Shown here: piece after piece, positions 1 through 25,652 of the stretch | How the letters are laid out: every line of letters starts with the position of its first letter | How positions within the stretch are numbered: the first letter of the stretch is position 1 | Virus record (IMG/VR): IMGVR_UViG_3300048589_001555 | Span: 1-33,811 of that record | Origin: a virus | Direction: 5' to 3' (one strand) | DNA: 33,811 bases | Program-made: the position numbers and the translations under genes | The notes under the pieces: generated by a model | The model's database searches: none | The model's input: only the letters and a program-made list of their open reading frames with translations | Told to the model about the DNA's origin: nothing

Positions 1-366
1 TCAATAGAAGCTACTGCGTTTCAATAAGCATTTGTGATTCTGCAAATTCGATTTCAACGATTTTATCGTATCGATAATGATGAGTCGCTCGTAAGCAGTA
101 CAGTCAGACAGAATCATGGTTATTTCCTGACTTGCTATTTTTGGAGCACTCTTTATCTGCTCGGAAAGCAACCAATCACCTGGAATTTCCAATGCGTTTG
201 CTATTAGGACAAAGGTTTCCAGGCTCATAATTTTACAACCGCTTTCTATATAGCTAATGTAGGTAGGAGATTTATCGATCAACTCCGAAAGCATCGCTTG
301 AGATAATTGGTTTCGCTTACGAATTTCTTTAATTCTTCGACCAATTTTGCAGTAATTCAGACCCAT
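1..366 (-). CDS. XRE-family helix-turn-helix repressor
   Basis: A 121-residue cytoplasmic DNA-binding protein with an N-terminal Cro/CI-type helix-turn-helix at about residues 9-63. The pattern 'IGRRIKEIRKRNQLSQ...SPTYISYIESG...LETFVLIANAL' is typical of XRE repressors. The C-terminal half is short, predicted helical and not recognised, so there is no LexA-like protease domain. The ATG at 366 is chosen over an upstream in-frame TTG at 396 because GGAGGT (373-378) sits 6-8 bases before it. It is divergent from the recombinase operon, as expected for an immunity repressor controlling integration and excision functions. The stop codon occupies bases 1-3, so the gene is complete. Confidence 0.85.
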   Translation of the reverse strand: MGLNYCKIGRRIKEIRKRNQLSQAMLSELIDKSPTYISYIESGCKIMSLETFVLIANALEIPGDWLLSEQIKSAPKIASQEITMILSDCTAYERLIIIDTIKSLKSNLQNHKCLLKRSSFY

Positions 367-385
367 AGATTGAACCTCCGAAAAT

Positions 386-414
386 GTTATGTTCAATTAT
401 GGACTTTTAATCAA
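386..414 (-). promoter_or_regulatory. Candidate promoter of the XRE repressor
   Basis: On the minus strand a TTGATT -35 (409-414) and CATAAC -10 (386-391) are separated by 17 bases, placing the start point just ahead of the GGAGGT of the repressor gene. Both hexamers deviate from consensus, so this is tentative. Confidence 0.35.
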
Positions 415-435
415 TAACACTTAATTGAAAGTTAA

Positions 436-464
436 TTAAATGGTCGGTTTGTTATTACATAATT
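436..464 (+). promoter_or_regulatory. Candidate promoter of the recombinase operon
   Basis: CATAAT (459-464) matches 5 of 6 bases of the -10 consensus. A poor -35 (TTAAAT, 436-441) lies 17 bases upstream, which would suit an activated or repressed promoter. The flanking sequence contains repeated TTAAT/AATTAA words that could be repressor contacts. Assigned by eye only. Confidence 0.3.
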
Positions 465-485
465 CAGATATATCATCTCGTTTCT

Positions 486-517
486 AAACCATAAGTCAAG
501 AACATGACCTATGGTTT
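486..517. repeat. 13-bp inverted repeat in the repressor/recombinase intergenic region
   Basis: Arms AAACCATAAGTCA (486-498) and TGACCTATGGTTT (505-517) are inverted copies with one mismatch (a G-T pair if RNA) around a 6-base centre. It lies in the probable 5' leader of the recombinase operon. It could be a repressor operator, a recombinase binding site, or an RNA hairpin controlling expression of the recombinase-like gene. No T-tract follows, so it is not a classical terminator. Confidence 0.6.
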
Positions 518-579
518 ATTGATGTCTTTACCTTCCATTTGTAAAATTGTATGAATGAAGAACAGATATGGAGGGGTAC

Positions 580-1188
580 GTGCCTGAATTGATTGAAGAA
601 AAAGAGAAAATCGGACTAGAAGTAATGCCTTCATTCGATTTTTCATTTTCGTGTGACAAAGAGCAAGAGCTGCGCATCTTGGAGCACAGGGCATGGCTTA
701 AAAGTATTAAGCGAGAAATGCCATTGCCAAAGCACCATTTTAAGGTCGCAATATACATTCGATATTTCAACCAGACGAAATATGATGATTACATCTCCTT
801 TCATAAGAAACAATTCTCTGATACGATTGCCCTTTGCCCAAATTGGGAATTCGTTGGATTCTATGTGGATGAAGGCGCTACCGCGCCTAATATGGAAACT
901 GCGCAGGCATGGTCACGGCTGTTAAACGACTGCAATGCTGGCAAAGTTGATTTAATTATCACTCAAAAAGCAAGCAATGTCTCCAAAAAAATCACGGAAA
1001 TAAGCTTCTGTTCAAGAATTCTTGCTGCGCTTGAAAAACCGGTTGGGATATATTTTATATCTGAAGACATCTATACTTTGGCATCATACTATCAGAGTGA
1101 TTTAAAAGACTCGTTTTTTCTTCCCTATCCCGATTGGTCTGTTCTGCCGGATGACAATTCTCAAGAGATAGGGACACTGCATGATTGA
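580..1188 (+). CDS. Serine-recombinase-like protein lacking catalytic residues
   Basis: About 202 residues. The central part aligns by eye with the resolvase domain of the next gene: 'VAIYIRYFNQ' against 'VAVYARVSTD', 'PNWEFVGFYVDEG' against 'PNWILVKIYADEG', and 'DCNAGKVDLIITQ' against 'DCRAGRIDMILTK'. The nucleophilic serine is Phe (about residue 63). The SRFARN arginines are Asn and Lys (about 133 and 136), and the conserved Arg after the DEG loop is Ala (about 108). It cannot cleave DNA by the known mechanism; a regulatory or structural partner role is inferred. GGAGG (570-574) lies 5 bases before GTG 580, which favours that start over ATG 568, whose own codon overlaps the SD. The 3' end overlaps the active recombinase by 8 bases. 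The N-terminal 50 residues are not recognised. Confidence 0.75.
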   Translation: MPELIEEKEKIGLEVMPSFDFSFSCDKEQELRILEHRAWLKSIKREMPLPKHHFKVAIYIRYFNQTKYDDYISFHKKQFSDTIALCPNWEFVGFYVDEGATAPNMETAQAWSRLLNDCNAGKVDLIITQKASNVSKKITEISFCSRILAALEKPVGIYFISEDIYTLASYYQSDLKDSFFLPYPDWSVLPDDNSQEIGTLHD

Positions 1189-3076
1189 TCAGATAAAAAA
1201 GCAGAAAGCTGAAGAACAAAAGGAAAAAGTACGTAAAAGGATTAAAACGCAGATTGATCCGAATACGTATGCTTTCATTCCAGCAAAAAAACAAGTTGAT
1301 TATTATGATAATGACATTCAACAACGCGTTGCAGTTTATGCTCGTGTTTCAACAGACAATATCCAGCAAACTTCATCATATGAGCTTCAGAAAAAGTATT
1401 ACGAAGATTTCGTTATACACCATCCGAACTGGATACTAGTAAAAATCTATGCCGATGAGGGTACTAGCGGAACATCCACTGCGAACCGGGATGAGTTTAA
1501 CAAAATGATAGCAGATTGCCGCGCTGGAAGGATAGACATGATTTTAACGAAGAGTGTTTCGCGTTTTGCGAGAAATGTCGTTGATTGCATTGGTATGGTT
1601 AGAACTCTTTCCGATTTACCGCATCCTGTTGGAGTCTTTTTTGAAAGCGAGTGTATTTTTTCACTTAAGGATGATTCCCAAATGGCGCTTTCTTTTCTGG
1701 CTACAATGGCACAGGAAGAGTCTCATATACGGAGCCGAAGCATGGAGACATCACTTCGTATGCGACTTGATGGCGGGCTGCCGTTAACGCCGAAACTTCT
1801 CGGCTACTCGCATGACACGGAAGGAAATCTTGTCATCAACCCGGATGAAGAGGCAACCGTTAAGCTTATATTCTCCATGTATCTCTATGGCTATTCAACA
1901 TCAGAAATTGCTACAACTCTTACTGAACTGGGTCGAAAAACATACCTAGGCAATATAACTTGGTCATCAAATTCAGTAGTGCAAGTATTACGAAACGAAC
2001 GTCACTGCGGCGATGTGTTGACGAGGAAAACTTTCACACCGAACTATTTAAATCATAAGGCAAAGAAAAACAGAGGGGATAGACCGCAGAGCATTTATCG
2101 GAATCATCATGAAGCCATCGTGTCAAGAGATGATTTTATCGCTGTGCAGCGACTTCTTGAAAATGCAAAGTATGGTAACAAATCAATTCTACCGGAACTT
2201 CGAGTGATTGACAGTGGTCTTCTCAAGGGATTTGTTATTGTGAACCCCCGCTGGGCGGGATTCAAGTCTACCGATTATTATGATGCTGCAATCAGCATTA
2301 AACCTGACCCGCAGGACCTATGTGAAGATACTAAATGTTTAGATCAAGAGCCAGAGATTCAATTCGAAGCAGAAGCCGGGGCTTTTGACATGCGGGGGTT
2401 TGAGATTACACGTTCGGAGATGTTTGATTCCGTTCATCGACCATACGTCATATTTCAAGACAAAAAAATCAAATTTAGCACTGCATGCATAAGAAAGTTT
2501 GATAAAAATAACCATATTGAGTTACTTGTTGATCCAATAAATATGAAATTTGCTGTCAGAACAATAGGTAAGGACAACAAATATTCAACCGTTTGTTCGA
2601 AACATGTAAATGACCTATATTATCCTAAGGAAATATCTTGTGCTGCATTTATAGATACATTGTTCGAAATATTCGGTTGGAACACAGACCTCAAATATCG
2701 GATATCGGGAGCGTTTTATCAAAAAGACGATGAAATTGTTTTTCTATTTAACATTAATGATGCTGAAGCTTTTATCAAACCAGTAATGCTGGCCATTCGA
2801 GCTGTGGAAAATGATCAAGAAGGGACGCTTGAACCATTGTCGACGTCGGGCAAAAGGGTTCGAGCTGTTCCAGAAGAGTGGGTTCATGCATTTGGCAACC
2901 TGTTTTACACCCATCAGCATATTTTTCCATTATTAGAATCCAAAGAAAGCATGGACTTGAATATTCGAGAGGAAGGGCAATTGTATGAAACAGGGGAGAA
3001 GATTTGCATGACCGGAGTAGATGAACTAAGCGAATTCATAAGTCAAGAGCTGATGAGGGGGAATACTCGAGAATGA
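1181..3076 (+). CDS. Large serine recombinase (site-specific integrase/excisionase)
   Basis: A 631-residue protein. The resolvase domain (about 48-190) keeps the nucleophile Ser57 in 'YARVST', Arg55, Arg103 and 'SRFARN' (127-132). A recombinase domain follows (about 200-330, 'LLGYSHDTEGNLVINPDEEATVK' region). Family members normally continue into a cysteine zinc ribbon and coiled coil. Here no CxxC pairs appear, and residues about 401-580 form a different module that is repeated in the next two genes. It likely catalyses integration and excision of the element by concerted double-strand cleavage and strand rotation. Its start overlaps the preceding gene and its stop overlaps the next start (ATGA), so the operon looks translationally coupled. 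Catalytic assignment is secure; the role of the C-terminal module is unknown. Confidence 0.92.
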   Translation: MIDQIKKQKAEEQKEKVRKRIKTQIDPNTYAFIPAKKQVDYYDNDIQQRVAVYARVSTDNIQQTSSYELQKKYYEDFVIHHPNWILVKIYADEGTSGTSTANRDEFNKMIADCRAGRIDMILTKSVSRFARNVVDCIGMVRTLSDLPHPVGVFFESECIFSLKDDSQMALSFLATMAQEESHIRSRSMETSLRMRLDGGLPLTPKLLGYSHDTEGNLVINPDEEATVKLIFSMYLYGYSTSEIATTLTELGRKTYLGNITWSSNSVVQVLRNERHCGDVLTRKTFTPNYLNHKAKKNRGDRPQSIYRNHHEAIVSRDDFIAVQRLLENAKYGNKSILPELRVIDSGLLKGFVIVNPRWAGFKSTDYYDAAISIKPDPQDLCEDTKCLDQEPEIQFEAEAGAFDMRGFEITRSEMFDSVHRPYVIFQDKKIKFSTACIRKFDKNNHIELLVDPINMKFAVRTIGKDNKYSTVCSKHVNDLYYPKEISCAAFIDTLFEIFGWNTDLKYRISGAFYQKDDEIVFLFNINDAEAFIKPVMLAIRAVENDQEGTLEPLSTSGKRVRAVPEEWVHAFGNLFYTHQHIFPLLESKESMDLNIREEGQLYETGEKICMTGVDELSEFISQELMRGNTRE

Positions 3077-3885
3077 ATAACAGTATCGATGATCGGCCCC
3101 ATAACATTTTAGAAAGTTGCGATTACCCTGCTGATTGTACCGACTCTGAAAACAGGATATGCAGCAATACGCAGATTTCTAAAGATGCAACAGCAACAAC
3201 GTTTCTTCAACTTGAAAAAGAATTTTATGTTCCAGCGGAAAGTAAAAGGGCTCAAATTGATGACGACGTGATCAAACTTGATGGTGAATTTGATTATGAC
3301 GGATATCAAGTGGTTCGACGTGAGTTTTTCGCACATACTAACGAGCCATCAATTGCTTTTAATGATTATAGAATCTCTGTTAATACAGCATGCTTAAATA
3401 AACTTCCTTTGACAGATAATGTACAGGTGCTTGTTAATCAAACCAATAAAATTCTTGCAATCCAACCATGTCAGGAAGAAGAACGCAACTCATTTGCATG
3501 GTGCACCCCTGGAAATGGCAGGAGGAAACCCAAGCAGATTACCTGCAGATTGTTCTTTGCCAAGATATTCACACTAATGAATTGGAACCCTGAGTATCGT
3601 TATAAGCTATTGGGGAAAATCATTCACGCAAATGATAAATATCTTCTGGCATTCGATTTGACAGCGACGGAAGTATATCAACGCGTAACGATTGAAGGAA
3701 AGAGGGCGAAAACATCCCGTACACCCGTATTTCCGGCTGAGTGGCAAAATCAATTTGGGTTGGCTTATAGTGAACACCAAAAATCGATGCAGATCGATAT
3801 TTTTGACGGGTATGCCGTGTATGCCATAAAAAGTAATGTGATTTCAAAAATTGAAATTGATTCAGTGAAGGATAAGCGGACTTAA
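3073..3885 (+). CDS. Free-standing copy of the recombinase C-terminal module
   Basis: A 270-residue protein with no catalytic domain. Residues about 71-236 resemble recombinase residues 401-580: 'GEFDYDGYQVVRREFF' against 'GAFDMRGFEITRSEMF', 'ISVNTACLNK' against 'IKFSTACIRK', 'VQVLVN' against 'IELLVD', 'MNWNPEYRYKLLGK' against 'FGWNTDLKYRISGA', and 'FPAEWQNQFGLAYSEHQ' against 'VPEEWVHAFGNLFYTHQ'. The N-terminal 70 residues look disordered. The start overlaps the recombinase stop by 4 bases (ATGA), implying coupled translation in fixed proportion. A DNA-binding or recombinase-partner role, perhaps a directionality factor, is inferred from paralogy and position only. Confidence 0.7.
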   Translation: MNNSIDDRPHNILESCDYPADCTDSENRICSNTQISKDATATTFLQLEKEFYVPAESKRAQIDDDVIKLDGEFDYDGYQVVRREFFAHTNEPSIAFNDYRISVNTACLNKLPLTDNVQVLVNQTNKILAIQPCQEEERNSFAWCTPGNGRRKPKQITCRLFFAKIFTLMNWNPEYRYKLLGKIIHANDKYLLAFDLTATEVYQRVTIEGKRAKTSRTPVFPAEWQNQFGLAYSEHQKSMQIDIFDGYAVYAIKSNVISKIEIDSVKDKRT

Positions 3886-3927
3886 GGAATAAGTTTTTTG
3901 ATTAAAAATATATGGAGGATTGGACAT

Positions 3928-4344
3928 ATGAATGTGCAGAAAGAACTCGTGGCGGCCTTAACTATAGACTTAAAAAGGAACAGATTCCGAATTCATAAGC
4001 ATACTTTACATGGACTTGGCGATCCCAGGTACATTCAATTCCTTATCAATCCTGAAGATGGTTATATTGCAATACTAGGGAGTGACAAGCCTTTGGTGGG
4101 GGGGACAGCGAATAAGGTCACTCTAGATAATGCAAACAGCAAAAAATCTGTGGAGTTTTACAGCGCAAACTTGCTTAATGGAATTTTCAAAATCTTTGGT
4201 AAGCTGGACTATCATTATAGTTATCGCTTAAGCGGTGAAATCGACCAAGTGAACCGAGTTGCGTATTATTCCATGAAAACGCTACAGAAAAATGGTCGGA
4301 GTGAAGTGGAGAATGGCGATGAAATTCAGACAACTGAAAATTGA
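3928..4344 (+). CDS. Second short paralogue of the recombinase C-terminal module
   Basis: A 138-residue protein. ATG 3928 is chosen because GGAGG (3914-3918) lies 9 bases upstream; an in-frame TTG at 3898 has no such signal. It matches the second half of the module: 'YIQFLINPEDGYIAIL' corresponds to the 'LLVDPINMKFAV' strand pair, and 'LLNGIFKIFGKLDYHYSYRLSGEI' to 'FIDTLFEIFGWNTDLKYRISGAF'. It lacks the N-terminal leader of the preceding gene and the 'PEEW...HQ' tail. Function unknown. Together with its neighbour it forms a three-member paralogous set inside one operon, suggesting a hetero-oligomeric complex on DNA. Confidence 0.65.
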   Translation: MNVQKELVAALTIDLKRNRFRIHKHTLHGLGDPRYIQFLINPEDGYIAILGSDKPLVGGTANKVTLDNANSKKSVEFYSANLLNGIFKIFGKLDYHYSYRLSGEIDQVNRVAYYSMKTLQKNGRSEVENGDEIQTTEN

Positions 4345-5284
4345 TAGCGAGTTTAAGAATCTGATCCGTCCTCTTCGCAAAGAAGAGTATAGCCTACTAG
4401 AATTGAATCTTGTAGCAGATGGGTGCCGTGATCCAATCATTATATGGAATGGGATCATTGTTGATGGGCATAATCGTTATGAAATTTGTAACAGATTGAA
4501 CATTCCCTATTCAGTAATGGAAGTAGAGTTTGAAAGCCGAGAAGCGGCTGTAATTTGGATATGCAGCAATCAGCTCGGAAGAAGAAACATTTCAGAAGAG
4601 ACACGAAAATATTTGATCGGTAGAAAATATGAAGCTGAAAAGTATATCGGAAGCCGAAAAAATACCTTTGGCCACAATCAATACACGAGATCACTCGATA
4701 CCGAAAAAACAGATCAAAATATAGATGACCACGGTTGTGATCAAAAAGAATACTGGCGGCGCACTGCATGGCGGATAGGACATGAGTATCACATATCTTC
4801 AGGAACCGTTCAAAAATATGCAAAATATAGCCAAGCTGTAAGGCTAATTGCTCAAAAAGCGCCTGAGTTAGTTCCACAAATTCTATCGGGCAACTACAAG
4901 ATATCGCATGAAAACGTCGTTGCTCTGTCAATGATGGACGCGAAAGAAGTGCAAAAGTTAAATCGAAAATTCGTGCAAGGAGCAATCCCATATATTCGAT
5001 ATAGTGAATCGCGAAAGGACTTTTCAGATGATATCCCTTGTAAATCGATTGACCAGATTCATGAACCAGCCGCAATAAAAGCTATGCCTGCGTATGATCC
5101 TGATGCCGTAGTTGTATGTCTCACGCTTACAATACCATCTTGGATAAGTTCAATTGAACGAACGAAATCGGCAGCAGACTTAGATATCATTTCCCCTGCT
5201 GCAAAATCAAAGCTTATAGAAGCTTTAGAAGAATTGCAGAGTACGGGGCGGGAGATGCTCGAAACAATAAGAGGAGAGGCTTGA
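4319..5284 (+). CDS. ParB-like N-terminal domain protein
   Basis: About 321 residues from ATG 4319, which has GGAGA (4308-4312) 6 bases upstream; in-frame starts further up overlap the SD or lack one. Residues about 10-85 form a ParB/sulfiredoxin-like domain with 'IIIWNGIIVDGHNRYEIC', the GHxR form of the ParB nucleotide-binding motif, then a helical part 'NISEETRKYLIGRKYEAEK'. A helix-turn-helix-like segment around 'GTVQKYAKYS' follows. The gene overlaps the previous one by 26 bases. ParB-fold proteins on mobile elements can act as CTP-dependent clamps, nucleases or regulators; which applies here is not visible. Being in the recombinase operon suggests DNA organisation or control of excision. 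Confidence 0.75.
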   Translation: MKFRQLKIDSEFKNLIRPLRKEEYSLLELNLVADGCRDPIIIWNGIIVDGHNRYEICNRLNIPYSVMEVEFESREAAVIWICSNQLGRRNISEETRKYLIGRKYEAEKYIGSRKNTFGHNQYTRSLDTEKTDQNIDDHGCDQKEYWRRTAWRIGHEYHISSGTVQKYAKYSQAVRLIAQKAPELVPQILSGNYKISHENVVALSMMDAKEVQKLNRKFVQGAIPYIRYSESRKDFSDDIPCKSIDQIHEPAAIKAMPAYDPDAVVVCLTLTIPSWISSIERTKSAADLDIISPAAKSKLIEALEELQSTGREMLETIRGEA

Positions 5285-6150
5285 TGTCAGATTATAATAT
5301 GTTTGTTCCAAATGTTCATTTTGAACAAATACCAATTAAAAATTTGGTTTCAAATCAAGAATATCAACGAAATCTATCACAACATCATGTTGAAAATGCT
5401 GCTGCGCATTTTGATCTTTATCAAATAAATCCTGTGAAAGTGAGTCGTCGCGACGGGGTTAATTATGTTTTCAATGGGCAGCATACTATAGAGATTGTTG
5501 CACTTATATCCGGATCACGGGAAACACCCATCTGGTGTATGATTTATGACGATCTGAATTATGAGCATGAAGCAGATATATTTGCTAATCAGATGAAGTT
5601 TGTAAGGCCATTGAAACCATATGAAGTTTTCATGGCAAATATAGAGGCAGGAAATGACAAGCAGTTAATCATCAAAGATCTCCTTGAGTCATACTCTCTA
5701 TCACTTGGACAAACTAGAAACTATGGGGTCATTTGCGCAGTCTCAACTGTTGAAGGTATTTACGAACGTTTCGGTTATCATGTCTTGGATCGTACCCTTC
5801 GCCTATGTGTAGGTGCATGGGAAGGTGATATGAATTCGTTGTCCGCAAATTTTCTCAACGGCGTTGCACGACTAGTCATTGCATTTGGCGATTCAATAAA
5901 AGATGATCAGTTTAAAGAAAAAGTCGGATATACATCTGTAAAACAACTTTCACGGACCGCTAAGGAACGTAGGCCGGGGTCACTTGGCTATGCAGAAGCG
6001 ATGCTTGTTGCGTACAATAGAAAATGCAAATTTCCACTTCGTTGGACAAAACTTTATGAAAAGAATCTTGGGACTACAGATGGACTGGATGTGGATATTG
6101 ATTCGCAGGATGTAGATGCGGATGTAATGGATGAAATCGATGATGAATAA
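5284..6150 (+). CDS. ParB-like / DUF6551-type protein
   Basis: A 288-residue protein. The N-terminal part carries 'IPIKNLVSNQEYQRNLSQHHVENAAAHFD', followed by 'YVFNGQHTIEIVAL', a variant ParB-type motif (NGQHT). It resembles the protein at 11965 ('VPLNEICIEQYQR...VDGQHRLCAM') in layout. The C-terminus is acidic (about the last 20 residues, rich in Asp). The start overlaps the previous stop (TGATG), with GGAG (5273-5276) 7 bases upstream. It is the last gene of the recombinase operon. A role in DNA binding or regulation is likely by family, but no specific function is known. The threonine in place of the usual arginine in the motif is worth noting. Confidence 0.7.
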   Translation: MSDYNMFVPNVHFEQIPIKNLVSNQEYQRNLSQHHVENAAAHFDLYQINPVKVSRRDGVNYVFNGQHTIEIVALISGSRETPIWCMIYDDLNYEHEADIFANQMKFVRPLKPYEVFMANIEAGNDKQLIIKDLLESYSLSLGQTRNYGVICAVSTVEGIYERFGYHVLDRTLRLCVGAWEGDMNSLSANFLNGVARLVIAFGDSIKDDQFKEKVGYTSVKQLSRTAKERRPGSLGYAEAMLVAYNRKCKFPLRWTKLYEKNLGTTDGLDVDIDSQDVDADVMDEIDDE

Positions 6151-6504
6151 GTACAATTTGGCTTTCAGATGTACAGGAGAAATTTGAGTAAAACGTTATA
6201 GGAAAAAGATATTATTATCAAGATGGTTGGCAATATAATTAAGATTCAGAAATCTGAGGTAATTCCTTGGTGAAAGTACAACTTGGCAAAAATCGAGGTG
6301 AGGAGGTTTGTATCATATTTTGGTGCTAACCATTTGCCTCTGGAAAACAATCATAAATGCGCCATTTGATTCAGACGAATTGGTTGGGGATGGAGTATAT
6401 AGATCAATGAAGTTGTATCCATTGACGACCGAGACTGGTTCATAGACACTCGCTCGACTAGCTAATTCTGTTAGTTCAAAGACTAGAGATGATATATATC
6501 TAAG
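6151..6504. other. Gene-poor stretch after the recombinase operon
   Basis: About 350 bases with no convincing gene. It holds two near-identical copies of AGTACAAYTTGGC (6150-6162 and 6275-6287), a strong but unused GGAGG (6302-6306), and a short open frame of about 45 codons with no usable start spacing. Its position next to a serine recombinase operon makes it a possible home for an attachment site or for ParB-like protein binding sites. No direct evidence for either. Confidence 0.4.
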
Positions 6505-6527
6505 CCCGCAGTTACTGCGGGTTTTTT
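6505..6527 (+). terminator. Rho-independent terminator
   Basis: Perfect 7-bp stem CCCGCAG/CTGCGGG (6505-6511, 6515-6521) with a TTA loop, followed by six T residues. It closes the recombinase/ParB operon, or a short transcript from the gene-poor stretch, and insulates it from the sigma factor operon. Confidence 0.9.
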
Positions 6528-6690
6528 CATTTTTGGGAATTTGCGACAGATTCTTGCTTGAAAATCGAGTAGAAATGAAAAGCGAAAAATGAGCTCGGCA
6601 CAAAATATATTATTTCAAATTTGCCGCATACCTTCCCGCTTTTGGTCTTCCCGAACATTTGGTTGTATATATGGGCGTTTTCGAACTCGT

Positions 6691-6717
6691 TATAATCCTC
6701 CGTGGAAGTTTCGGAGG
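6691..6717 (+). promoter_or_regulatory. -10 box and dyad ahead of the small ORF at 6725
   Basis: A perfect TATAAT (6691-6696) is followed directly by the inverted repeat CCTCCG...CGGAGG (6697-6702, 6712-6717) with a 9-base centre. The right arm contains the GGAGG ribosome binding site of the TTG start at 6725. No good -35 is visible at 17 bases. The dyad could be an operator over the start point, or could mask the ribosome binding site when transcription starts upstream. Confidence 0.45.
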
Positions 6718-6724
6718 ACGATGT

Positions 6725-6934
6725 TTGAGAGTTCGCGCCCGTGCAATGGTTGAATGCGAAACCGTTAATTCTTCATCGAAAAAAGCACAAAAAGACTTCA
6801 AAATAATATATTTTCGCAAAAATGGACGTTTTGCTTCCGCTTTTGAAAAGTCAGATTGTTTTATTTATATAGGGGGAGAAGAGGCAAAACTCGGACTGCA
6901 CCTTAAAAACCAAATATGGAGGACAAACCGTTGA
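6725..6934 (+). CDS. Small hypothetical protein upstream of the sigma factor
   Basis: A 69-residue ORF starting at TTG 6725, chosen because GGAGG (6713-6717) lies 7 bases upstream. The ORF stays open further upstream but without such a signal. It includes 'MVECETVNSSSKKAQKDFK', 'YFRKNGRF' and 'GGEEAKLGLHLKNQIW', a basic, probably compact beta-rich protein with no membrane segment. Its stop overlaps the TTG start of the sigma-like gene by 4 bases (TTGA), which suggests translational coupling and supports it being real. Not recognised as a named family. Confidence 0.55.
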   Translation: MRVRARAMVECETVNSSSKKAQKDFKIIYFRKNGRFASAFEKSDCFIYIGGEEAKLGLHLKNQIWRTNR

Positions 6935-7371
6935 ACTGCGAGAGCGAACAGGCTGCCGCTGGCGCTATGTTTGATGCATTTTGCAAGGAGGTCCTCCGTA
7001 ACACAGTTTTTAATTACAAACGGAAGATCAAGCGCCAGTCAAGTAGAGAAGTGATCACGCCGGATCCTGAACAATATATCTCTGCGCGGGATGCCGTCTT
7101 TGATGTATATGAAACGGATCATCTTTTTATCGAATTTGAGGGAAGTATATATCCGCTGGACAATGAAAAGCTTCATCAGTCGATGCTTACATTGCCGAAG
7201 AATCTGCTGGGTGTATTGTTGCTCAAGTTCTGGCATGGTCAGAAAGACGCGATAATCGCGAGTCACTTTGGCGTTTCAACAAGAACGATTCGTCAATGGC
7301 GTAGTCTTGCGATCGCTGAAATTCGGAAGTGGTATCAAGAAAAGGAGGTTGAATTTAGCGACACCTCGTGA
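6931..7371 (+). CDS. Sigma-70-like regulator (Tn916 Orf7 type)
   Basis: About 146 residues. GGAGG (6918-6922) lies 8 bases before TTG 6931; the upstream ATG 6916 would overlap that SD. The C-terminal half reads as sigma region 4 ('MLTLPKNLLGVLLLKFWHGQKDAIIASHFGVSTRTIRQW'), with the helix-turn-helix at about residues 105-130. The N-terminal half ('FCKEVLRNTVFNYKRKIKRQS') matches the usual start of the short sigma-like proteins of Tn916-family and other clostridial elements. With the next gene it forms the common Orf7/Orf8 regulatory pair thought to control element transcription. Calling it a true sigma factor is inference, as region 2 is not clear. Confidence 0.8.
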   Translation: MNCESEQAAAGAMFDAFCKEVLRNTVFNYKRKIKRQSSREVITPDPEQYISARDAVFDVYETDHLFIEFEGSIYPLDNEKLHQSMLTLPKNLLGVLLLKFWHGQKDAIIASHFGVSTRTIRQWRSLAIAEIRKWYQEKEVEFSDTS

Positions 7372-7413
7372 AATGAAAGAAGGGCTTCTTTCAAATCAGC
7401 CGATAGGAGAGAT

Positions 7414-7635
7414 ATGATTCTAAGTTTCGAGACAATTTGTGCCGCGGTAAAGGGAGATAAGGACGCAATAGAAGAAGTACTAAAGTACTACGATCCTTAT
7501 ATTGTTACGATGTGCACGTTCCAATCTATGGATGAGGATGGATTTGAATACACATACGTAGATCATGACGCTATCCAATTATTACAAAAACGACTCGCTG
7601 AACAAATACCAAAATGGAAGGAAATCTGCAAATGA
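7414..7635 (+). CDS. HTH-type conjugative-element regulator (Tn916 Orf8 type)
   Basis: A 73-residue protein: 'LSFETICAAVKGDKDAIEEVLKYYDPYI' at the N-terminus is the characteristic beginning of the helix-turn-helix domain found in Tn916 Orf8-like proteins (PF12645 type), and it ends 'LQKRLAEQIPKWKE'. ATG 7414 is preceded by GGAGAG (7405-7410). It directly follows the sigma-like gene, as in Tn916, where the pair regulates transfer-related transcription. In phage contexts the pair probably serves as an early regulator. Its stop overlaps the next start (ATGA). Confidence 0.8.
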   Translation: MILSFETICAAVKGDKDAIEEVLKYYDPYIVTMCTFQSMDEDGFEYTYVDHDAIQLLQKRLAEQIPKWKEICK

Positions 7636-8453
7636 TACTTTTACCCGATCTGTTCGAATTCGCTTATATGCCCAACTGGTTTGACCATCTGATTGCGCTG
7701 TCTGAGATGGCAGTGCCGGAATCATGGCGTTTTACAAATCCAAAAATACCACCTAGGAACACTGATACACCGATCCTAGAAAAATATGTCAACTACGTTT
7801 TCAGGAAACAAATCATTGACTTCAACAATTTCAATTATGTGTCCAATCCAGAATATGGGGACAGAATTTTTTACATCAGAAATGAAAACGCATGTTTTAA
7901 CACAGGCCTCTACACAAAGAACTACAAGAGCATCTTTGGATGTTTTACCCGAAATAAGCGTAAAGACGCGAAGCAAGACTGGCTATTCCGAGGGTTTTTT
8001 GACGATACTGCGCCCGATTTGAAGTTTGTGCAGCCATTGCCGGATAAGCCCGGATTGCTTGTGCCGATCATGGGCATGACTTACTTCCCCGTGTGGGACA
8101 TTCGCGTCAATGTGAACCATATTCTGTGTGATCCCGACAATTTTGCGCGGCTACCACTGGAAGTGCAGCGCGCGAAAAACCTATCGCTTCTGCTTGAAAC
8201 CGCCGTCGAGCTGGCGCGGCGCAAGGCGTCGTTTGAACCCGGCATCGTAGTGCCACAGGGATATCAGGGCAAGGTGCAGTTTTTGCTTCCGTTGTGCTTA
8301 CTGGATTCTGAACGCACAGATCTTGCCATGACGCTGACTCCAATGGACGGCTATTATCTCGGCCATACCTGCTTGACGCTGGAGATGGCTTATATGAACG
8401 CGCGGCTGATCGGCAGACCGGTCGCACCCTGGCTTCTGGAACTCGTGACCTGA
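7632..8453 (+). CDS. DUF3825-like protein
   Basis: A 273-residue protein; the start overlaps the previous stop (ATGA), with AAGGAA about 9 bases upstream. The C-terminal two thirds has the run 'FFDDTAPDLKFVQPLP', 'FPVWDIRVNVNHILCD', 'VELARRKASFEPGIVVPQGY' and 'LTLEMAYMNARLIGRPVAPWL', which resembles the DUF3825 domain. That domain often sits C-terminal to RNA/DNA-binding or NYN-type domains; here it stands nearly alone after an N-terminal region of about 90 residues. Function unknown. Codon and base use change within this gene: the first third is AT-rich, while from about 8000 onward it becomes GC-rich like the phage module. This suggests a recombination joint inside or near it. Confidence 0.65.
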   Translation: MILLPDLFEFAYMPNWFDHLIALSEMAVPESWRFTNPKIPPRNTDTPILEKYVNYVFRKQIIDFNNFNYVSNPEYGDRIFYIRNENACFNTGLYTKNYKSIFGCFTRNKRKDAKQDWLFRGFFDDTAPDLKFVQPLPDKPGLLVPIMGMTYFPVWDIRVNVNHILCDPDNFARLPLEVQRAKNLSLLLETAVELARRKASFEPGIVVPQGYQGKVQFLLPLCLLDSERTDLAMTLTPMDGYYLGHTCLTLEMAYMNARLIGRPVAPWLLELVT

Positions 8454-8507
8454 TTTTTCCGGCTGCCGCCCTCAGGGGTTAAGGATATAGCACATTAAAA
8501 CTAAATA

Positions 8508-8556
8508 GGGCCTGGCGAGCGGCGCTTTTTGTGCCGTGCCGCCGGGTCCTTTTTTT
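8508..8556 (+). terminator. Rho-independent terminator after the DUF3825-like gene
   Basis: A long GC-rich hairpin: outer arms 8508-8517 and 8540-8549 pair with two wobble pairs, inner arms flank a TTTTT loop, and a run of seven T (8550-8556) follows. It separates the DUF3825-like gene from the sigma-like gene at 8611. Confidence 0.85.
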
Positions 8557-8610
8557 CGTGCGCTCAAAAATGCGCCAATCGTCTGGCTCTGAACGAAAGG
8601 AGCCGGACAA

Positions 8611-9009
8611 ATGGAACTGGTCAATATTAAGTATCGCTTTGCTGACGGGCACATTGAGGAATTGGAGGTGGAACAAGAGATCGCGGAGGCACTAAATGAA
8701 CTGGATCGGAAGGAGTACAACAACACGCAAAAGGAGACGCGCCGCCACGTAACCTTTGACGTATCCGAGGAACTGTCATGGTTGGCGGTTGATGATCAGA
8801 GATTAGCCCGAGTGCTTGATGGTGCAACAGAGGAAACTCGGCTGCATGCAGCGATATCCAAATTGAGCACCAGACAACAGACGCTGATTCGTGATTTGTT
8901 CTTTCATCGGAAAACACAAGCTGCAATCGCAGAACAGCTTGGAATTTCACAGCAGGCTGTGAGTGATCAGTTGTCGACGATCATAAAAAAGTTAAAAAAA
9001 CTTTTATGA
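8611..9009 (+). CDS. Second sigma-70 region 4-like regulator
   Basis: A 132-residue protein with a clear sigma region 4 helix-turn-helix at about 85-125 ('ISKLSTRQQTLIRDLFFHRKTQAAIAEQLGISQQAVSDQ') and a basic tail. AAAGGAG (8597-8603) lies 7 bases before the ATG. The N-terminal half is acidic and contains 'VTFDVSEELSWLAVDDQRL', common in phage and element sigma-like proteins. It is probably a positive regulator of the replication genes downstream. Near the 3' end the codons ATA AAA AAG and TTA AAA AAA create two possible -1 slippery sites followed by an A/T-rich hairpin, so a longer frameshifted form is possible. Confidence 0.8.
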   Translation: MELVNIKYRFADGHIEELEVEQEIAEALNELDRKEYNNTQKETRRHVTFDVSEELSWLAVDDQRLARVLDGATEETRLHAAISKLSTRQQTLIRDLFFHRKTQAAIAEQLGISQQAVSDQLSTIIKKLKKLL

Positions 9010-9119
9010 GAATCCTTGTATTTTGCTTTTTTCGTGACCTACAGGTGAAGGGGTTATTTTTTGGAACCTTGACATCTGAATATCCGGTGGTCATGAGAAG
9101 CCCGCATAGTCGAGGATAA
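8985..9119 (+). other. Possible -1 frameshift extension of the sigma-like protein
   Basis: The heptamer A AAA AAG at 8985-8991 is in the correct frame for -1 slippage, and A AAA AAA follows at 8994-9000. A 7-bp A/T stem (8987-8993 with 8999-9005) overlaps the sites. A -1 shift would add 42 codons up to TAA at 9117-9119, running into the structured region that follows. The sequence permits this but does not prove it. Confidence 0.3.
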
Positions 9120-9208
9120 CGTCCCAGAGTGCGGCCCGGCGGGATGCGGGGAGCGAAGAGCTGCGCGGCGAAGAGCCGATCATGACCACCGCCCTATCTC
9201 CGGGATAG
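9081..9208 (+). ncRNA. Structured RNA candidate upstream of the helicase gene
   Basis: An 11-bp perfect stem GGTGGTCATGA (9086-9096) / TCATGACCACC (9180-9190) encloses further pairs: CCCGCAT (9101-9107) with ATGCGGG (9144-9150), and two small hairpins with the same GAAGA pentaloop (9152-9162 AGC-GAAGA-GCT; 9166-9178 CGGC-GAAGA-GCCG). Another hairpin CTATC/GATAG (9194-9208) follows. The region carries no convincing ORF and lies in the leader of the replication operon. It could be a cis-acting element or a small phage RNA. No known riboswitch class was recognised by eye. Confidence 0.6.
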
Positions 9209-9243
9209 AAGCGTCTAATAGGAGAAATATTTTAATCCGTACC

Positions 9244-9262
9244 CCTTCGGGAAGGAAACATG
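9244..9262 (+). promoter_or_regulatory. Ribosome binding site hairpin of the helicase gene
   Basis: CCTT (9244-9247) pairs with AAGG (9252-9255) around a CGGG loop, so the AAGGAA ribosome binding site of ATG 9260 is partly in a hairpin. Together with the upstream folded RNA this suggests translational control of the first replication gene. Confidence 0.45.
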
Positions 9263-10705
9263 GAAAACAAGCAATTACATATGCCCATCAGAGCGCGTCC
9301 GTATGATCATCAACGACGCGCTTCTTCATTTGCCTGCCAGATGTTTGGACTGGCAGGGCACGACCCGCCGACCAGCCGCGGAGTGGCGCTACTCATGGAG
9401 ATGGGAACCGGCAAAAGCCTAACCACGATTGCGGTCGCCGGACGGTTATTTCTCAATCGAAAGATCGAGAGGATGCTAATCGTCGCGCCGTTGTCCATCC
9501 TAGGTGTCTGGCAGGAGGAGTTTCGTAAGTTCGCTGATTTTGAGTATTCGCTCACCATATTGAACGGCAGCGAATCTAAGAAGATCGAGAAATTGCGACA
9601 AATGCCGACATCAGGTTTGCAGGTTGCGGTGATCAACTACGAATCTGCCTGGAGGTTGGAAAGGGAGCTTGCTGCCTGGGACGCCTATCTCATCGTCTGC
9701 GACGAAGGGCACAAGATCAAAACGCACAACATCACCGCAAGCAAGTGTATGCACCGTCTTGGCGCAAGAGCGCGGTATCGGATGCTGCTGACGGGGACTA
9801 TCATCACGAACAAAGCGATCGATGTGTTCAGCCCGTACAAGTTTCTAAATCCGGCGGTGTTCGGCAACAGTTTCTACGCCTTTCGTAACCGCTACTTCGA
9901 TATGGTCGGGTATGGGAATCACACTCCCGTTCTGAAAGCGAATATGGCGGAGGAACTCACGCGGCGCATCCACAGCATCGCGTTCCGCGCGACAAAGGAT
10001 GAGTGCCTCGATCTGCCGGAAACGACGGAAATCGTACGCAGGGTCGACTTGGAACCACTGGCTCAGCGACTGTACCAGCAGCTGGTTCGGGACAGTTATG
10101 CGCAGATCAAGGACGGCGAGATTACCGCCGTAAACGTGCTGACCCGCCTGCTACGGCTTTCGCAATTAACCGGCGGGTTCCTACGCGGGGACGAAGGGAA
10201 TCGCGCCGAACGGATCAGCAACGCCAAACTTGACGCGCTTTCGGACATCATCGATAGCGCGGCGCAGGAAGGTGGAAAACTCGTTATCATCGCGCGTTTT
10301 TTGCCGGAGATCGATGCCATCACCGCAATTCTGGAACGGAAGGCGATCGGTTACTCGCTGATCACCGGCGCGGTGAAGGATCGCGACGAGCAGGTGCGGC
10401 GGTTTCAAACCGATTCAGAGGTGATTGTGTTCGTCGGTCAGATTGCGACGGCAGGGTTGGGCATCACGCTCACCGCTGCCGACAAGATGGTGTTCTACTC
10501 GCTTGATTACAGCATGTCGAACTTCGAACAGACAAAAGCGCGCATTCACCGTGTAGGGCAGCGCAACCCATGTACCTATCTCTACCTCGTCGCTGAAAAC
10601 ACTGTGGATGAGAAAGTGCTCCAGGCGCTACGTGACAAAGCCGATCTGGCTAGAATCCTGATCGATGATTACCGGGCGGGAAAGAACCCGTTCGGCACAC
10701 CCTGA
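9260..10705 (+). CDS. SNF2-family DEAD/DEAH-like helicase
   Basis: A 481-residue two-domain superfamily 2 ATPase. Motif I 'LLMEMGTGKSLT' (about 45-55), motif II 'VCDEGH' (146-151), motif III 'LLTGT' (176-180) and the C-terminal helicase motifs 'GLGITLTAADKMVFYSLDYS' and 'QTKARIHRVGQ' identify the SNF2 type. It is a minimal form, usual for clostridial phages, and probably remodels or translocates on DNA during phage replication or recombination. First gene of the GC-rich replication module. Its leader carries the structured RNA and a hairpin over the ribosome binding site. The next gene follows after 10 bases. Confidence 0.93.
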   Translation: MENKQLHMPIRARPYDHQRRASSFACQMFGLAGHDPPTSRGVALLMEMGTGKSLTTIAVAGRLFLNRKIERMLIVAPLSILGVWQEEFRKFADFEYSLTILNGSESKKIEKLRQMPTSGLQVAVINYESAWRLERELAAWDAYLIVCDEGHKIKTHNITASKCMHRLGARARYRMLLTGTIITNKAIDVFSPYKFLNPAVFGNSFYAFRNRYFDMVGYGNHTPVLKANMAEELTRRIHSIAFRATKDECLDLPETTEIVRRVDLEPLAQRLYQQLVRDSYAQIKDGEITAVNVLTRLLRLSQLTGGFLRGDEGNRAERISNAKLDALSDIIDSAAQEGGKLVIIARFLPEIDAITAILERKAIGYSLITGAVKDRDEQVRRFQTDSEVIVFVGQIATAGLGITLTAADKMVFYSLDYSMSNFEQTKARIHRVGQRNPCTYLYLVAENTVDEKVLQALRDKADLARILIDDYRAGKNPFGTP

Positions 10706-17540: not shown

Positions 17541-17549
17541 AAAAAGAAG

Positions 17550-17588
17550 AGAGCCTCCGCGGATAAAAACGCGGAGGCTCTTTTGCTT
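17550..17588 (+). terminator. Rho-independent terminator before the HNH gene
   Basis: An 11-bp stem (17551-17561 with 17570-17580, extendable by one A-T pair) and an 8-base loop, followed by TTTTGCTTTT. It ends the replication transcript, or acts as an attenuator of the late operon, since the next gene starts only 26 bases after the stem. Confidence 0.88.
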
Positions 17589-17605: not shown

Positions 17606-17962
17606 ATGCCGATGAAACCCAAGCGTCCATGCTCCTATCCGAGATGCGGCAGGCTAACGGACGGTCGGTACTGCGATGAACACAATCAGATCGCCGAGCG
17701 TCAGTACAACCGATACCTTCGTGACCCGGACACCAACAAACGTTACGGACGCGCATGGAAGAAAATCCGTGCGCGATTTTTATCACAGCATCCATTGTGC
17801 GCGCAGTGCGAAGCGGAAGGACGCTTGACGCCGGCGCAGGAAGTACATCATATCCTGCCGCTGGCAAACGGTGGAACACACGACGAGCGCAACCTCATGT
17901 CGCTATGTAAGAGCTGCCATTCGAGGATCACGATCGGATGCAGCAACACGAAATATAAATAA
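17606..17962 (+). CDS. HNH endonuclease (packaging-associated)
   Basis: A 118-residue protein. A small N-terminal Cys/His cluster ('CSYPRCG...YCDEH') precedes the HNH core: 'HPLCAQC' (62-68), 'EVHHILPLANGG' (79-90), 'NLMSLCKSCHSR' (96-107), giving the HH catalytic pair and a four-Cys zinc site. In HK97-like cos phages an HNH protein encoded next to the small terminase is needed for DNA packaging; the order HNH-TerS here matches. GGAGG (17595-17599) lies 6 bases before the ATG. Confidence 0.93.
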   Translation: MPMKPKRPCSYPRCGRLTDGRYCDEHNQIAERQYNRYLRDPDTNKRYGRAWKKIRARFLSQHPLCAQCEAEGRLTPAQEVHHILPLANGGTHDERNLMSLCKSCHSRITIGCSNTKYK

Positions 17963-23968: not shown

Positions 23969-23998
23969 ACGGAGGCTCACGCGGGCCTCCGTTTTGAT
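23969..23998 (+). terminator. Terminator or attenuator before the large terminase
   Basis: An 8-bp stem ACGGAGGC/GCCTCCGT (23969-23976, 23985-23992) with an 8-base loop and TTTGATTT. It lies 20 bases before the ATG of the terminase. A second small hairpin (TGGGGC...GCCCCA, about 23928-23942) precedes it. Likely reduces read-through from the accessory genes. Confidence 0.7.
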
Positions 23999-25626: not shown

Positions 25627-25652
25627 AGGTGCATCCAGTGACGGATGCACCT
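25627..25652. terminator. Bidirectional terminator between terL and the antisense gene
   Basis: A perfect 10-bp stem AGGTGCATCC/GGATGCACCT with a 6-base loop. On the plus strand CTTTG follows; on the minus strand TTTCTTAT follows. It serves the convergent ends of the large terminase and the zinc-ribbon gene. Confidence 0.8.

Follow-up and report, generated by a model that had tools for sequence, protein, structure and literature searches.

Processive antitermination RNAs are known from few, seemingly unrelated examples. The pemK RNA motif was reportedly first described in an earlier published study. We found no function for the pemK RNA in print, and the available passages of PMC11701678, PMC7657543 and PMC11507696 give none. 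Likewise, no text joining the pemK RNA, canT and boxA was found in the literature searched, which mostly did without subscription papers. As described in the available parts of PMC11658703, canT of Tn916 is an orientation-specific, cis-acting, processive antiterminator, most likely an RNA, and its core is needed in cis. The predicted canT structures were found hard to interpret by their own authors, and the word 'boxA' is missing from the main text of that paper (PMC11658703). The E. coli boxA is bound by NusB and S10, according to the accessible part of PMC12691694, and passages of PMC9378689 describe HK022 put as a two-stem-loop RNA, about 70 nt long, that needs no other factors to act.

The window analysed here, i.e., the whole 33,811-nt stretch of viral DNA in IMG/VR record IMGVR_UViG_3300048589_001555, contains a conserved folded RNA ahead of a replication operon (Table 1).

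Table 1. Positions of the RNA element, its parts and the neighbouring features in the window.
Feature	Position	Strand	Evidence
Small sigma-70 region-4-like ORF, upstream	8611-9009	+	Pfam PF04545, E 4.1e-10; sigma-70-family ORF also upstream of canT in Tn916
boxA-like motif TTGACATCTGAATA, one mismatch to TTGAHAACTGMATA	9069-9082	+	sole match in the window, 0.05 expected; aligned with Clostridia rRNA-operon boxA
Closing helix, 5' strand	9085-9096	+	predicted fold; both-side changes in 7 of 12 pairs, 9 sequences
Arm P2, stem 9102-9107/9129-9134, conserved interior AGUCGAGGAUAACGUCCCAGA	9102-9134	+	predicted fold; both-side changes in 2 pairs, phage set
Arm P3: CCC/GGG, G.G mismatch, GC/GC, loop GGGAU	9135-9151	+	predicted fold; arm and mismatch also in L276, L317, L319 and L284
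Arm P4, GAAGA-loop hairpin	9152-9162	+	predicted fold; counterpart of P4 in the element RNAs of model R2
Arm P5, GAAGA-loop hairpin, loop unconserved	9166-9178	+	predicted fold; copies compared
Closing helix, 3' strand	9180-9191	+	predicted fold; both-side changes in 7 of 12 pairs, 9 sequences
SNF2-family helicase, first gene after the RNA	9260-10705	+	Pfam PF00176, E 1.6e-32; also behind the RNA in L001-L004, L063 and L196
Terminator-like hairpin, 15 pairs, the strongest in the operon; candidate antiterminator obstacle	17547-17584	+	consensus scan
Further terminator-like hairpins, coding strand	17750-17775, 23969-23992, 25627-25652	+	consensus scan

A conserved folded RNA before the helicase gene

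The initial annotation had placed a structured RNA in a gap without an ORF ahead of the replication operon, and our results agree with it. The minimum-energy fold of the plus strand of 9081-9208 has an energy of -56.4 kcal/mol (z -2.68), equalled by 5 of 200 dinucleotide shuffles, and no plus-strand ORF of at least 60 amino acids lies between 9010 and 9259. For the minus strand 26 of 200 shuffles were equally stable (z -1.15), so the plus strand is the more stable one. The RNA recurs in 11 other fetched loci (L001-L004, L063, L072, L078, L083, L096, L130 and L196), and the diverged copies re-pair the helix. Together with boxA the whole element covers 9067-9191, with an RNA domain of about 107 nt. 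Two small hairpins lie between the RNA and the helicase start, one at 9194-9208 and one just before 9260; the former is partly retained in the window clade and is missing from L063.

In the predicted fold, a closing helix of 12 bp surrounds the four arms P2-P5. The 11-bp closing stem annotated initially (9086-9096/9180-9190) is thus present but one pair short. Although the window sequence allows the 7-bp inner stem proposed with it (9101-9107/9144-9150), both prediction and conservation point to the stem of P2, with P3 following as an arm of its own. Both arms are retained in L063 and L196 through paired changes, whereas the 7-bp stem is mismatched there by inspection. The two GAAGA hairpins do exist as P4 and P5, but their identical loops differ in L002, L003, L004, L063 and L196, and we regard the twin loops as incidental.

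Among the viral contig loci whose surroundings were read (all but L262-L272), helicase-based and pattern scans gave copies in L001-L004 and L063 only, and 5 of 62 pattern stretches on bacterial genome contigs were copies (L072, L078, L083, L096 and L130). The pattern matches in L057, L061, L064, L066-L071 and L313 were judged from their sequences to be chance matches. A covariance model made from eight phage copies (R1) returned 11 RNAs over 90 sources; L063 was found at E 2.4e-9, and the next two matches had E-values of 3 and 4.7. The second diverged copy, L196, was found in a genome that also carries L130: in the Christensenella sp. UBA7703 assembly, a window-type copy is located on contig 10 (L130) and an L063-type copy on contig 14 (L196). 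Among 297 genomes of the order of this assembly, it alone was matched by R1. The contig of L078 is titled Candidatus Gracilibacteria and its RNA has an R1 score equal to that of the window; it is perhaps a mis-binned phage contig. L072, L078 and L130 were dropped from the counting set because their R1 scores equal those of L002 or the window, which left nine sequences.

L063 alone folds into the window architecture, and L196 retains the closing helix, P2 and P3. Between the window type and the L063/L196 type, seven of the 12 closing-helix pairs are changed on both sides, but covariation in the phage core is weak (2 of 17 pairs) because the core, AGUCGAGGAUAAC, is nearly invariant across the copies. 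In the nine sequences, 103 of 108 cells of the closing helix pair on the plus strand and 101 of 108 on the minus strand, so the helix alone does not reveal the strand. A.C mismatches occur in the closing helix of L004 and L096.

The RNA precedes the SNF2 helicase gene in every locus of which the downstream gene was read (the window, L001-L004, L063 and L196). In L063 and L196 a gene other than the window's sigma-like ORF comes next upstream, which indicates that the RNA goes with the helicase side. The RNA is optional, as L135 and L178 have another ORF in its place and a helicase 86% identical to that of L063; among the matches listed, small ORFs occupy this slot in most helicase relatives. 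A search of 8400-9400 gave no sigma-70 consensus promoter, and no plus-strand terminator-like site was found between the RNA and the helicase gene. Over both strands of the window, 34 terminator-like sites were counted against 23.2 (SD 4.8) expected by chance, a modest excess; with the coding-strand hairpins of Table 1, there is something to read through.

Some further features of the surroundings were noted. The sequence CGTGACCTACAGGTGAAGG at 9033-9051 matches CGTGRCNTANNNNTGARGG, which several helicase phages have behind the sigma-like ORF, whether or not they carry the RNA. It occurs in 30 of 369 loci, with the same contigs recurring in many cases, and is possibly another leader or regulator site. 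Upstream of the RNA in L063, at about 6120-6400, the palindromes CCGGAAATAAAATTTCCGG and CCGGAAATTTTATTTCCGG are possible operators. The G+C content of the window is about 0.39 at 1-8000 and above 0.5 at 8001-32000, with a step near 8 kb, and recombinase-like ORFs lie at 568-3076 in its left part; the record may hold two modules.

boxA and the relationship to the pemK RNA

Allowing at most one mismatch to TTGAHAACTGMATA, the 33.8-kb window contains the single match listed in Table 1. It agrees with the boxA of the host group with one mismatch, and it is a candidate motif in a putative transcript. In all nine copies, boxA ends 2 nt before the closing helix. The motif reads TTGACATCTGAATA in the window, L001 and L002, TTGAAAACTACATA in L003, L004 and L096, TTGACAACTACATA in L083, TTGATAACGGAATA in L063 and TTGAAAACTGAATA in L196. 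TTGACA at 9069 was rejected as a promoter element, as there is no matching -10 and the conserved motif fits boxA better. A longer pattern, CACNTTGANAACTGNATA, was found at 11 places in 7 of 196 Clostridia genomes, against 2 for the reversed pattern. Five of these places fall in the interval from 16S to 23S rRNA, about 130 nt ahead of 23S; another is the RNA of L196, and the remaining five lie elsewhere. The exact matches in L251, L255, L256, L257 and L260 lie away from any detected rRNA and are possibly other antitermination leaders; by eye, no pemK-like core was seen downstream of boxA in L251, L255, L257 and L260 (L256 ends too early).

According to the initial annotation, the RNA could not be matched to a known class, and the Rfam search that it proposed indeed gave no family at gathering score for the window. 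Against the pemK model (RF02913), the window RNA gave no match at gathering, in e-value mode or across the whole record. The matches to sR36, CRISPR-DR57, Afu_182 and ZEB2_AS1_3 were far under their cut-offs, and no tRNA or tmRNA was found. In substance, the annotation was nevertheless misleading in view of the diverged copies and the models described below. L063 scores 34.8 bits against the pemK model, exactly its gathering score of 34.8, and L196 scores 31.5 bits, 3.3 under it. As the window RNA lies under the pemK gathering score, we file it as a divergent relative and not as a member. Ahead of P2, the window does not have the leading pemK motif AUAAUGAUACU, of which GAUACU alone remains in L063 and L196. 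It also lacks the GAUAAUGAUACUC motif, which is altered by canT(S3); in L063 and L196 this motif is reduced to its 3' half. The loss of the canT(S3) site, AUAAUGAUAC, in the window is the main point against equal function.

In local alignments, L063 and L196 scored 23-27 against Tn916, L289 and L276, where shuffled sequences averaged 13-14 and none of 60 did as well in any pairing; they did not reach this level against L284 and L307. The window reached it against L276 (0/60) and nearly so against L284 (1/60), but not against Tn916 (7/60), L289 (55/60) or L307 (8/60). The likeness is visible in arm P3, which reads CCCGGC-GGGAU-GCGGGG in the window, CCCGGAC-GGAU-GUCGGGG in L276, CCCGGGC-GGAU-GUCGGGG in L317, UCCGGGC-GGAU-GCCGGGA in L319 and UCCGUGC-AGAU-GCGGGGA in L284; the G.G mismatch is common to all five. 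A covariance model built from RNAs of the mobile-element type alone (L276, L317, L319 and L284; model R2) was searched against 86 kb, and for all nine phage RNAs the RNA was the best match of its own locus. The E-values were 5e-6 for L063, 5.8e-6 for L196 and 0.002-0.016 for the window-type copies, the window itself scoring 17.3 bits (E 0.0067 in 86 kb). On 16 helicase loci without the RNA, R2 gave nothing under E 0.91. In the reverse direction, none of 13 element-type or boxA-type loci was matched by the phage model R1, and an HMM of three element P3-P4 blocks did not recover the phage RNAs.

In 28 distinct rows taken from elements and phages, each of the 13 P2-P4 pairs changed on both sides and 97% of the cells paired, compared with 68% after shuffling and 42-49% when the alignment was slid; this alignment was fitted to model R2 and to the structure, R2 was trained on four of its rows, and P2 is out of register in the rows of the window type. 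Taken as sequence evidence, these results support, with L063 and L196 as intermediates, a homology between the phage RNAs and the canT/pemK core. For the window RNA, the homology is carried by these two intermediates and a modest direct R2 score.

pemK RNAs and canT in clostridial elements

The pemK RNA was found in 121 of 391 Clostridia genomes (119 above cut-off), and the pattern GATAATGATACTYCN{25,54}GTGRAA in 23 of 391, with no match for the reversed pattern. Thirty pemK loci were fetched, 24 of which could be anchored on the motif; three of these 24 repeat the core of another. A strict boxA (at most one mismatch) was located 128-260 nt upstream of 15 of the 24 anchored RNAs, and downstream or on the other strand of none (0/24 each). 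With the three core repeats removed, 12 of 21 had it. A broad boxA pattern, chosen after the misses of the strict pattern had been seen, matched upstream in 24 of 29, compared with 4 and 6 of 29 in the controls. A helix joining the sequence after boxA to the 3' side was better than every one of 40 shuffles in six of the 15 loci with strict boxA and was poor in L357 (29/40). The first ORFs downstream of the pemK RNAs, as read from the sequences, are PemK/MazF-like, ParA-like, serine recombinase and excisionase-like.

Among 30 loci with Tn916-family Xis genes (PF09035), six have a boxA (at most one mismatch) upstream of Xis on the Xis strand. The Tn916-like element L303 (record NZ_CP007650.1) has an exact boxA at L303:1154 and a pemK RNA match of 55 bits at L303:1311-1411. 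The canT(S3) change, given in the available text of PMC11658703 as ATA at nucleotide 283 after orf8, corresponds to L303:1311-1313 and hits the first three bases of this match. The 162-bp deletion described there (L303:1257-1418; PMC11658703) takes out the whole match. The order boxA, closing helix, P2-P4 core, which we propose as the definition of a canT-type element, is found in the window (boxA at 9069-9082, helix from 9085) and likewise in Tn916. On the whole, the pemK motif is probably the core of a boxA-dependent processive antiterminator in many clostridial mobile elements, among which canT of Tn916 is the one tested, and phages of this group would have a shortened form of it, about 107 nt long, before their replication operon.

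Proposed function and comparison with known systems

Our main reading, to which we give a probability of about 0.6, is that 9067-9191, as nascent RNA, acts as a processive antiterminator and is a small phage-borne relative of the pemK RNA and of canT in Tn916. The polymerase would transcribe the leader from a promoter upstream. Given that no consensus promoter lies near the RNA and that a sigma-70-like ORF also stands before canT, transcription may enter from upstream. Judging from the motif, NusB-S10 of this host would bind the window boxA. By analogy with canT, the domain formed by the 12-bp helix and P2-P5 could then hold the NusB-S10 complex on the elongating polymerase, or touch the polymerase. 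The polymerase, now terminator-resistant, would read through terminators across the replication genes and beyond. In favour of an antiterminator we count the uniqueness of boxA and its rRNA type, the R2 matches, the pemK scores, the overlap with canT(S3) and the deletion, and the upstream boxA of the 15 anchored pemK RNAs. Against it we count the failed pemK searches of the window, the failures of R1 and the HMM, the missing GAUAAUGAUACUC, the lack of a promoter, the modest terminator-like excess, and the presence of the helicase without the RNA in L135 and L178.

The fold could instead sense a protein or metabolite and control translation or attenuation of the helicase gene only. Such a local cis-regulator would leave boxA unexplained, and related RNAs stand before genes as unrelated as those listed above for the pemK RNAs. 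The RNA does stop about 70 nt before the helicase start, the hairpins at 9194-9208 and just before the start codon in the window clade would suit this role, and Rfam types the pemK RNA as 'Cis-reg'; against it, the stretch from the RNA to the gene gave no plus-strand terminator-like site, and we consider this explanation unlikely.

The two remaining explanations appear less probable still. A small RNA or decoy that is cut loose from the leader and acts in trans, e.g., by binding a host protein or countering defence, would fit the compact fold with its long closing helix, as in many stable small RNAs, and the near-invariance of AGUCGAGGAUAAC, but neither a promoter nor a terminator of its own was found. 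Moreover, the same operon follows in all loci read, and the proven relative canT is cis-acting, according to the available text of PMC11658703; this makes a trans role improbable. A DNA site, i.e., a replication origin or a recombination or packaging signal whose inverted repeat is merely RNA-like, is at least as improbable. The greater stability of the plus strand and the location of boxA on it speak for RNA, as do the match of the four arms to the pemK RNA family and the covariation of all 13 pairs across elements and phages, although the position ahead of replication genes and the almost equal pairing of the closing repeat on both strands (103 and 101 of 108 cells) would suit a DNA site. 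If the antiterminator reading is true, an Rfam motif, a genetically proven antiterminator and the rRNA boxA are united as one widespread group, and the short phage form would suit structural and biochemical work.

Among the known systems, HK022 put would resemble the window RNA in its working, being a phage early-operon RNA that acts in cis on the polymerase. In structure the two differ: put, at about 70 nt, consists of two stem-loops and contacts the zinc-binding domain of beta', whereas the window fold is four-armed, with a closing helix and boxA. With the rRNA-operon boxA and its NusB-S10, and with lambda nut, the window RNA shares a boxA in a nascent leader before a long operon, factor binding being presumed from the motif. 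It differs from them in that its structured domain comes after boxA and that neither an N-like protein nor a boxB-like N site was identified. The pemK RNA (RF02913) shares the arms P2, P3 and P4 and the sequence around P4, but boxA and the closing helix both lie outside the 61 positions of the Rfam model. The closest counterpart, canT, is about 260 nt long, compared with about 107 nt for the window RNA, and the 5' domain between the closing helix and P2 measures about 130 nt in canT, 18 nt in L063 and 5 nt in the window. The GAUAAUGAUACUC motif of canT is absent from the window, and xis-int lies downstream of canT but the helicase operon behind the window RNA, for which antitermination is proposed by analogy. 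What canT and the window have in common is a boxA just ahead of the 5' strand of a long closing helix, the same order of arms, a core that can be aligned via L063 and L196 (score 25 against a shuffle mean of 14, 0/60), and a sigma-70-like ORF upstream, which in Tn916 is L303:379-801 with sigma-70 region 4.
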